DNA of 64,000 bases, taken from contig CANIFU010000002.1 of the NCBI GenBank assembly GCA_947466965.1, positions 107,209 to 171,208 of the forward strand, read 5' to 3'. Below, piece by piece: positions 6,914 to 9,913 of this stretch; within the stretch, counting starts at the first letter, position 1, and every line of letters begins with the position of its first letter. Position numbers and translations under genes: made by a program. The notes beneath the pieces are model-generated. The model ran no database searches. It saw only the letters and a program-made list of their open reading frames with translations, and had not been told where the DNA came from. Source of the DNA: Bacteroidota bacterium (GTDB lineage: Bacteria; Bacteroidota; Bacteroidia; 2-12-FULL-35-15).

Positions 6914-7342
6914 TTACAAAATTATATGAACGAATGAACTCTCAATTTCAGTTTTATACTTTTTGATTGGCTTTAAGGCAGGTTCCTTCAATACATTGCC
7001 TTCCAGATCGAAAGTACTGCCATGTGAAGAGCAAAACAATCCCGTTTTATTTGCAGTCAAAGGATTATCCTGATGAGAACACTTCATTTCTAAAGCAGTG
7101 TAAATTCCATTACTCTTTTTAACCAATAATATATCAAATGGAATAGAACTGTTTCTGACGATTACACTATTATTTCCTTCAGTAAATGCTGTAAATGGAA
7201 CAGCGAGTATATTTTTCACAACAACTGCTTTAAATACAGGCATTGGGGTACACGAACTTAACTGTGAAACGAGGGCTCCCCCGCCAACGACACTTAAACA
7301 TAGGGCACAAGTTTTTTTTATAAATGACCGTCTATTCTGCAT
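6914..7342 (-). CDS. Rieske (2Fe-2S) domain lipoprotein/exported protein
   Basis: MQNRRSFIKK twin-Arg-like start, SSC lipobox, Rieske ligands C-S-H (CSHQDNPL) and C-x-x-H (CSSHGSTFDLEG). Confidence 0.8.
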   Translation of the reverse strand: MQNRRSFIKKTCALCLSVVGGGALVSQLSSCTPMPVFKAVVVKNILAVPFTAFTEGNNSVIVRNSSIPFDILLVKKSNGIYTALEMKCSHQDNPLTANKTGLFCSSHGSTFDLEGNVLKEPALKPIKKYKTEIESSFVHIIL

Positions 7343-7343
7343 A

Positions 7344-8555
7344 TTAAAAACTATAACCAACACCTAAGCTAAAGAAACCTTGTTCTTTTTTAAAGTCAGG
7401 ATCCGGCAATCCAACTAATACAGGGTTTTGCTCCCCTGTCTGCAATAGGACATAATCGGCCTTAACGATAACACCTTTTATAGGTTGAAAACTGATTCCA
7501 CCTACAAAGTAAGTACTATTTTTAGTTTTGTCAACAATTCCATTTTGAGATAATTTATAATTCATATCTAAATTCTCGTAGCGTGCAAAAACAGTAAGGT
7601 TCTTTTCTGACTTTTTAACTAATTTAAGAACGTTAAATCCAACTTCGCCATAATACCCCAACACAACCTCAGGAATATTATTGCCATAAGCATTGTTTAT
7701 TTTTTCAGAATCTGAAATTTGAACAGAAGTAAATAATCCCTTAAGGGAAAATCCTTTATTAGTATATTGAACATTGGCTTCATATAAAAATACGGGAGTT
7801 CCGAATGCCCCGTTGGCAAGTTTCAATGTATCGGAATCTTTTTTACTCAAACCGGCACTACCGCCGTAATAAGCGGAAGCCTGTATCCTAAAATTTTTAA
7901 TGTAATACAATAAGGAACCGGTAACTGCCATCGCAGATGCATTTGCGTCTCTCCCTTCAAAACGTCCATCACGAATTCCTCTACCACTTTTAAATTCAGC
8001 AGAATTTAATCCGTTAACCAATGCAAGAGAATAATTTAATCCAGGTAATTTGTTTGTTGAACCGAACAATCCTAAGCCAATCTCCCTCCAAGTAGCAGGA
8101 ATAATAAAGCGTTCAACAAATGGACGGTCATTACCATTAAAAGTAGTTGGTAGATGGTTTTCATTAATAATTCCAATTCTAGGAATAAATAAACCTGTAG
8201 TTAAATATATATTCTTATTTAAATTAAACTTAATAAAAGCTTGCTCCAATGCGACTTCACCACCTGCTTCTCCACCTGCAACTTTTGCATCCTCGATCTC
8301 CAACTCTGAAAAAAATGAAATTTTATCATTGAATTTATGACCTAAAAATAAGATCACCCTATCAACATTTGCTTCAGCAAGTTTATTATTTACGTTGTAT
8401 TTATATTTAACACTTCCATAGCCAGAAATTACTGTTGCAGTTTTACTTGCGATTAAGCCAGCAGCCAAAGAATCTTCTTTGGTTAATACTTGCGCTTTCA
8501 ATGTGGAAGCTAATAATGTTAATATGATTATTGTGTGCAATTGTATGTATTTCAT
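7344..8555 (-). CDS. outer-membrane porin-like beta-barrel protein
   Basis: Signal peptide, alternating beta-strand pattern and aromatic C-terminus (FFSLGVGYSF). Confidence 0.75.
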   Translation of the reverse strand: MKYIQLHTIIILTLLASTLKAQVLTKEDSLAAGLIASKTATVISGYGSVKYKYNVNNKLAEANVDRVILFLGHKFNDKISFFSELEIEDAKVAGGEAGGEVALEQAFIKFNLNKNIYLTTGLFIPRIGIINENHLPTTFNGNDRPFVERFIIPATWREIGLGLFGSTNKLPGLNYSLALVNGLNSAEFKSGRGIRDGRFEGRDANASAMAVTGSLLYYIKNFRIQASAYYGGSAGLSKKDSDTLKLANGAFGTPVFLYEANVQYTNKGFSLKGLFTSVQISDSEKINNAYGNNIPEVVLGYYGEVGFNVLKLVKKSEKNLTVFARYENLDMNYKLSQNGIVDKTKNSTYFVGGISFQPIKGVIVKADYVLLQTGEQNPVLVGLPDPDFKKEQGFFSLGVGYSF

Positions 8556-8658
8556 AAATAAAGAAATTATTTAGATTAATTATTAATAACGGCACAAATG
8601 TAGATTTGGAGCAACGAAACGACAATACCTAAAAAGTGGTATTTTAAAATTTGGAGGC

Positions 8659-8975
8659 AGAAAATAAGGTGATAGGGAAATAAGTTGAGGTGATAAGGGA
8701 AAAAGGTGATAAGGTTATAGGGTAAGAAGGGAAAAAGGTAATGGGTAAGAAGGAAAGAGGGTAATAGGGAAAGAGGTAATAAGGAAATAGGGTAATAAGG
8801 GAAAGAGGTTAATAAGGAAATAGGGTAATAAGGGAAAGAGGTTAATAGGGAAAAAGGTAATAAGGAAATAGGGTAATAAGGAAATAGGGTAATAAGGGAA
8901 AGAGGTTAATAAGGAAATAGGGTAATAAGGGAAAAAGGAAACAAGGTAATAAGGTAATAAGGAAAGAAAGAAAGG
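8659..8975. repeat. degenerate purine-rich tandem array, about 8-bp periodicity with a higher-order 33-bp unit, C-free on the + strand from 8659 to 8941
   Basis: Recurrent unit AAGGAAATAGGGTAATAAGGGAAAGAGGTTAAT and variants; no C between 8658 and 8942. Confidence 0.9.
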
Positions 8976-8977
8976 AA

Positions 8978-9643
8978 TTAATTACTCGCAAATAGGAAGT
9001 GATTCGGAGAGACTAAATTTTCGCGAACGGCAAACAAAACTAATCCGGCAGTATTGTTGACGCCTAGTTTGTTCATGATGTTTTTACGGTGAGTCGTAAC
9101 AGTATGCGTACTTAAAAACAGTTTATCAGCTACTTCTTTATTTGACAATCCTTCAGCAATCAGTTTGATGATTTCCATTTCGCGGTCACTTATATTTAAA
9201 CCTTCACAGGTATATTCATTAACCGATGTTTTATCAATCAAAACAGCACTTGCAATTTTTCCGCACATAAAATTTTCACCTTTCGCAGTTTTATAAATCG
9301 CTTCAACAATTTCTTCCTGCTCACAATCTTTTAACAGATGACTCGTTACGCCTAAATTCAAAGCCTTTGCAATAGAAATATTACTTTGAACATCTGTAAT
9401 GGCAAGCAAATGTGTTTTGGGATACTTTTTTACAATTTGATGTAAATTCTCAAAGCTAAAATTAGCAGATGTATAATCAATAATGATCAAATCGGGGTGA
9501 TAAAATTTTGATTGATTAATAAGGTCAGAAGCACTTAAAGCTTCTGAAAGGAGCACAAAATCAGTGTTTTCTTCAAGCAAAATTACTAAGCCTTTGCGAC
9601 TTAAAAAATGGCTATCAGCTATGATAATTTTGATTTTTTGCAC
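8978..9643 (-). CDS. NarL/LuxR-family response regulator (orphan in this window)
   Basis: Receiver domain (IIADSHFLSRKGL...DLIIIDYTS) plus LuxR HTH (SDREMEIIKLIAEGLSNKEVADKLFLSTHTVTTHRKNIMNKLGV). Confidence 0.9.
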   Translation of the reverse strand: MQKIKIIIADSHFLSRKGLVILLEENTDFVLLSEALSASDLINQSKFYHPDLIIIDYTSANFSFENLHQIVKKYPKTHLLAITDVQSNISIAKALNLGVTSHLLKDCEQEEIVEAIYKTAKGENFMCGKIASAVLIDKTSVNEYTCEGLNISDREMEIIKLIAEGLSNKEVADKLFLSTHTVTTHRKNIMNKLGVNNTAGLVLFAVRENLVSPNHFLFASN

Positions 9644-9773
9644 TTTTTTTATTTAGATTGATTTTAAATAATGATCAAAAGTACAAATTGTAATGGTTTA
9701 TACAAACTTTTGGAGGACTTTTTTAAAGGAACTTATAAACCTAACGAAAGAGTCATATTAAAACTAGAAAAGC

Positions 9774-9896
9774 AGCCGCAGATTCGCAGATTTTCTGTGT
9801 GTGTTAATTTGGACTGATTCTGTGTAAATTGAAAGTTTATAAGCTAAGAATCTGCCCAAATAAATTAAGCGTATAAAAATCTGCGAATCTGCGGCT
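9774..9896. repeat. 21-bp perfect inverted repeat flanking an 81-nt spacer (MITE/REP-like element)
   Basis: AGCCGCAGATTCGCAGATTTT (9774-9794) and its exact reverse complement at 9876-9896; each arm carries tandem CGCAGATT. Confidence 0.8.
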
Positions 9897-9913
9897 ATAT
9901 TGCTAAAACATAA

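Follow-up and report, generated by a model that had tools for sequence, protein, structure and literature searches.

A C-free octamer array between a NarL-type response regulator and a predicted porin operator in a Bacteroidota bacterium is probably a tolerated minisatellite

Among described repeats, the closest to those reported here are the GGGNATC and GGGGA(C/T)T heptamers of Xanthomonas and Nostoc, dispersed short G-rich intergenic direct repeats which recur, at varying length, beside the same genes of related species. Repeats of the GGGNATC type form G-quadruplexes (G4) in vitro and lie nearer the ORF at their 5' side, and no function could be assigned to them (Rehm et al. 2015, PMC4692102). 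The TAACTGA repeats of Beggiatoaceae, Cyanobacteria and five Bacteroidetes are also short intergenic direct repeats, and their long Bacteroidetes arrays are missing from close relatives at the same gene pair (MacGregor 2015, PMC4679880). As for the regulatory elements relevant to this locus, the NarL site of E. coli has a 7-2-7 arrangement, TACCCCTAAAGGGGTA, and the quoted napF and yeaR sites bracket position -43.5 (PMC4549865); the flavobacterial -7 box, TAnnTTTG, occupies -12 to -5 (PMC9723704); and Rho-loading (rut) sites are unstructured stretches rich in C and poor in G (PMC9160355; PMC6407284).

The array analysed here resembles the Xanthomonas and Nostoc repeats in belonging to a genome with many such intergenic loci (six C-free arrays), but its unit is not their 7-bp GGGNATC or GGGGA(C/T)T. 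It is instead a C-free unit of period 8/16 (GGTRATAA / GGGAAANA), repeated in long arrays where theirs mostly have four units, and without G4 potential. The TAACTGA repeats differ in being a heptamer with both C and G found mostly just before start codons, whereas the octamers described here stand upstream of a predicted promoter. The C-free arrays of this bacterial group are of a kind that is already partly known.

In the window (the whole 64-kb stretch of DNA that was analysed), C is absent from the + strand at 8659-8941, exactly as a previous sequence-only reading had reported. This run of 283 nt (A138 G98 T47) has a chance expectation of ~1e-19 per 64 kb under the dinucleotide statistics of the window, where the second longest C-free run measures 82 nt. 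A lone C occurs at 8942, beyond which the array continues to ~8970. Tandem Repeats Finder, the check that the earlier reading had proposed, gave the array as the top tandem repeat of the window (8663-8967, period 8), with super-units of 81 and 97 bp (score 346). The 33-bp higher-order unit noticed before was recovered in three perfect copies, at 8781, 8814 and 8878. The octamer period was likewise retained, but the unit had to be refined into 38 GG-started units, mostly of 7-9 nt, which alternate between GGTRATA(A) and GG(G)AAANA(A), the self-match of the array being strongest at 16 bp.

Searches outside the window showed that the unit is single-copy in its own genome, and that the exact GGTRATA triple-octamer pattern is found in 1 genome among 396 genomes of the phylum, so the unit is not phylum-wide. 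In an 864-kb sample of the own genome, the longest run lacking C or G after that of the array measures 86 nt, and other tandem arrays with a period <20 are all <60 nt. A mobile or phage origin was rejected because phages and plasmids gave no match to the array. We also discarded its identity with a known RNA family, as Rfam produced nothing above threshold, with only spurious sub-threshold matches and none of them within the array. Elsewhere in the window, positions 9767-9903, between the regulator and a ribonuclease Z-like gene, gave sub-threshold matches to several microRNA-precursor models, which suggests a long hairpin.

The array and its surroundings are organized as follows:

6914-7363, - strand: Rieske-domain protein, downstream of the porin gene
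7344-8555, - strand: porin-like protein of the outer membrane, matching Porin_O_P weakly (just below threshold) and predicted to be the target of the operator
8595-8602, - strand: predicted Bacteroidota -7 box TACATTTG (consensus TAnnTTTG, PMC9723704), 21 nt past the operator
8626-8641, - strand: predicted operator TACCACTTTTTAGGTA, two inverted heptamers in the 7-2-7 layout of the NarL site (PMC4549865)
8659-8970, + strand: degenerate octamer array (GGTRATAA / GGGAAANA), C-free at 8659-8941, with a C at 8942 and ending in GGAAAGAAAGAAAGGAA
8978-9643, - strand: NarL/LuxR-type response regulator of 221 aa (receiver and GerE domains)

Both flanking genes lie on the minus strand, as the earlier reading had stated, with the stop codon of the regulator ~10 nt from the 3' end of the array and the start of the porin gene 103 nt from its 5' end. 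The earlier proposal that the array could serve as a G-less porin leader was not supported, since a conserved predicted operator and -7 box separate the array from the porin start codon: in 20 of the 29 regulator orthologues the motif TACCN8GGTATT is followed after 20-21 nt by TAnnTTTG and, 30-44 nt later, by a start codon. When the genus was scanned for this pattern, 28 of 36 genomes had the module, mostly as a single copy, and the reversed control gave 0 matches. By our own arithmetic, the predicted operator is centred at -43.5 from the predicted transcription start of the porin gene and the array covers roughly -69 to -380. The array therefore lies upstream of the operator and, according to these predictions, upstream of the porin promoter and outside the porin leader; if the array is transcribed from the minus strand at all, the product would be regulator 3' RNA. 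As in napF and yeaR of E. coli, the predicted site consists of inverted TACC..../....GGTA heptamers with a 2-bp gap near -43 and adjoins a gene for a NarL-family regulator, but it differs from them in belonging to another phylum, in its -7 box and in targets that vary between species.

As a separate observation, the operator/promoter module of the regulator is kept while the target gene changes among species (window 8555-9643 and orthologues L046-L074). The targets are the porin and Rieske genes in the window, with a similar porin in G020 and G022, a TonB-dependent receptor-like gene in G025, G035, G010, G002, G001 and G015, a DUF4856 lipoprotein in G008 (similar in G028) and a 277-aa barrel-like protein in several species, and in some species there is no module target ahead of a BadF-type kinase. 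In G019 (contig C72 near 48.4 kb; L058/L083/L289), the BadF-type kinase gene that adjoins the same regulator has a 103-nt G-free (AACCAAT)n array ahead of its start codon, with a TAnnTTTG box on the far side of the array, making it a real candidate for a natural G-less leader, at a locus other than that of the window.

Comparison with relatives placed the origin of the array. Among the 29 clear orthologues of the regulator in the genus, the array is present in 2, that of the window and that of G025, a sister species with ~90% identity around the locus, and absent from 27. In G025 the array, which also contains one C, occupies the corresponding place between this regulator and the shared operator/promoter region. 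It measures 468 nt vs 317 nt in the window, a difference between species read from contigs of metagenome-assembled genomes (MAGs) or drafts, in which short-read assembly may have collapsed array lengths. The operator-side edge is identical in both species over 34 nt (GGGTAAGAAGGGAAAAAGGTAATGGGTAAGAAGG), and the interior is rearranged. The 18 other module-bearing orthologues have array-less regulator-operator spacers of 29-244 nt, those of the next-closest species G035 and G010 being of 30 and 157 nt. This comparison establishes that the two arrays are orthologous, of single origin and different in length and unit order; the simplest account, judging from these sequences, would be an origin in the common ancestor of G025 and the window's own genome (G000), followed by different growth. 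The expectation of the earlier reading that length would vary was borne out between these species, and its concern about assembly error was removed, since the independent MAG G025 carries an orthologous and longer array; an assembly artefact was accordingly rejected.

The same reading had considered that the repeat might be scattered through the genome. Scatter of the exact unit was rejected, as this is confined to one locus, but C-free arrays of other units do occur at many loci, and the window array is a member of this class. We collected the class by searching for a C followed by 101 non-C bases, so that its freedom from C is partly a product of construction, which the position rule and the within-genome unit similarity described below are not. 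In the genus, 34 of 36 genomes contain C-free runs of 101 nt or more, mostly tandem arrays of other units. A length of 121 nt or more is reached by such runs in 27 of 80 genomes sampled across the taxonomic class (three of them from the same genus). The own genome has six C-free arrays with different units, all outside called ORFs, and five of them (C1, C2, C8, C26 and C56, including that of the window) are matched in G025 by arrays with the same flanks, locus-typical units and different lengths. Among these C-free-selected loci, units from one genome are more similar to one another than units from different genomes, with a cosine of 0.21 vs 0.06, a result that 0 of 500 label shuffles reached. 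Three of four arrays based on 7, 8 or 14 bp (at least 55 nt) that came from sequence chosen without regard to arrays are nearly C-free on one strand, and arrays with periods in multiples of three generally contain both C and G.

The arrays are also oriented with respect to genes. On simple longest-ORF gene calls, the 5' end of the C-free strand abuts a gene in 39 cases vs 6 for the 3' end (P = 5e-7), and the 5' gene is the nearer one in 43 of 56 arrays of the genus and in 15 of 20 arrays of other families. This is the rule of the Xanthomonas and Nostoc repeats, which follow a stop codon when on the coding strand and precede a start codon when on the non-coding strand, and the window array itself breaks it, with its 3' gene by far the nearer of the two. 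Terminators were not enriched over controls after stop-anchored arrays (4 vs 6), nor were -7 boxes beyond start-anchored ones (1 vs 1).

Several further features of these genomes were recorded. The five additional C-free 7/8-bp arrays of the own genome (C1, C8, C14, C26 and C56; L267-L271) are 142-397 nt long with GTRAT-type units, and several begin right at a stop codon, some being followed by an intrinsic terminator-like hairpin. In two genomes from other families of the class we counted 31 (G452) and 21 (G487) C-free runs of 121 nt or longer, whose units are typical of the species (GGGGTATA, GTTAGATG and AAAATAGAAGATAG in the former; GATGGAAAATGGA in the latter). In G042 (L040, L044, L039), short GGAGATAGGG arrays are followed by inverted CCCTATCTCC counterparts, with several copies per genome, and these pairs could form long imperfect intergenic hairpins. 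On contig C10 of the own genome (L359:5682-5887), a 77-nt G-free run comes within ~45 nt after an 86-nt C-free one, as two degenerate repeats of opposite orientation that face each other.

Taken as a whole, we consider that the array is probably a degenerate minisatellite tolerated in the spacer between regulator and operator, grown by slippage, belonging to the multi-locus class and having no sequence-specific role for the porin. Other readings of the locus give the array a function. A possible though doubtful one is that it acts as a rut site, so that some 320 nt of untranslated, G-free, C-rich and unstructured regulator RNA would load Rho, terminate transcription and insulate the activator-dependent promoter downstream from read-through. 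The array is G-free on the regulator strand in both species, and the spacer RNA read from that strand has 33-36% C, 0-1% G and a predicted MFE of 0.0, in agreement with the earlier statement that the 3' RNA of the response regulator would be G-free and unstructured. Like known rut sites, it offers more than 78 nt of C-rich, G-poor, unstructured RNA past a stop codon, with C exceeding G in the 78-nt window and regularly spaced C (CC or TC in nearly every unit, as read from the sequence). The regulator stop ranks 1 of 634 sampled stops of the genome for C minus G in that window (30 vs 19 at the 99th percentile). In addition, a search for an intrinsic terminator between regulator and porin found none, and the genome encodes a Rho of 555 aa. 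However, rut sites are not defined by tandem repetition, and termination here is a prediction from sequence. Moreover, the majority of orthologues have neither the array nor a strong spacer terminator (found in 2 of 20), which argues that termination at this position is not generally needed, and most class arrays after stop codons have the opposite orientation, with a C-free sense strand, so the class overall is not a rut device.

It is very unlikely that the array is a cluster of half-sites, TACC heptamers on the regulator strand, which would titrate or concentrate the adjacent regulator beside its operator. Operator-arm-like heptamers number 10 in the window array and 17 in that of G025 (3.1 and 3.6 per 100 nt), against a background of 0.2 per 100 nt both in the window overall and, on average, in other C-free arrays. 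This enrichment is real but common to unrelated arrays of the same species, two of which (L267 and L269) reach 2.0-2.3 per 100 nt because the favoured unit of the species is GTRAT. Besides, the half-sites of the array are all direct repeats, with no inverted repeats found and 0 forming a 7-2-7 pair, and the other, array-less orthologues are also without them, leaving the idea weak. Very unlikely too is an action through unusual DNA structure (two-tetrad G4 or triplex) or as a phase-variation switch of the porin. In its favour, the array is G-rich and strand-asymmetric, its length differs between species, and there is the in vitro G4 precedent of the GGGNATC repeats. Against it, we found no four G3 tracts with loops of 12 nt or less and no predicted G4 in the array, so that G4, proposed from the sequence at first sight, was rejected on negative predictions, as was secondary structure. 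The triplex is unlikely because T (17% of the array) interrupts the purine tracts in most units and leaves them short. As for a switch, the spacing between operator and promoter is fixed whatever the array length, and changes in that length would therefore leave the promoter geometry unaltered.

The tolerated minisatellite, with its 8/16-bp unit, would date from the ancestor of the two sister species, having arisen in the interval that separates the regulator gene from the operator of the adjacent gene, and would grow and rearrange by slippage or unequal exchange as one of the strand-asymmetric C-free 7/8-bp arrays of the genus and other Bacteroidia. Its position outside the operator/promoter module may explain why it is tolerated, presumably with no specific function. 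A likely non-specific side effect would be a G-free, C-rich RNA past the regulator stop on which Rho could load. The composition of such arrays does not appear to be enforced, given that a C-bearing unit variant, GTGATTGCGTGA, has been multiplied within another array of G025 (L274), as expected if composition is copied. Two observations count against this minisatellite reading. In the array edge alignable between the two species, 0 of 16 substitutions involve C where 25% would be expected from neighbouring genes (P = 0.01), a pattern that hints at active avoidance of C, and the anchoring of 5' ends to genes, inside and outside the genus, is not predicted by pure random slippage. We consequently keep, as a rather unlikely alternative, that an orientation-aware active process in Bacteroidia makes and maintains species-typical C-free 7/8-bp arrays at gene ends, that of the window among them, with selection or mutation bias excluding C from one strand; such a process could involve, for instance, a trans-acting factor specific for the unit or slippage coupled to the ends of transcription.

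These results place in Bacteroidia, as in Xanthomonas and Nostoc, strand-asymmetric repeats with species-typical units and a common position rule, and since genetic tools exist for this phylum, the purpose of such repeats can be put to the test there. In addition, the locus reveals a response regulator which retains its operator module while the target gene is swapped.
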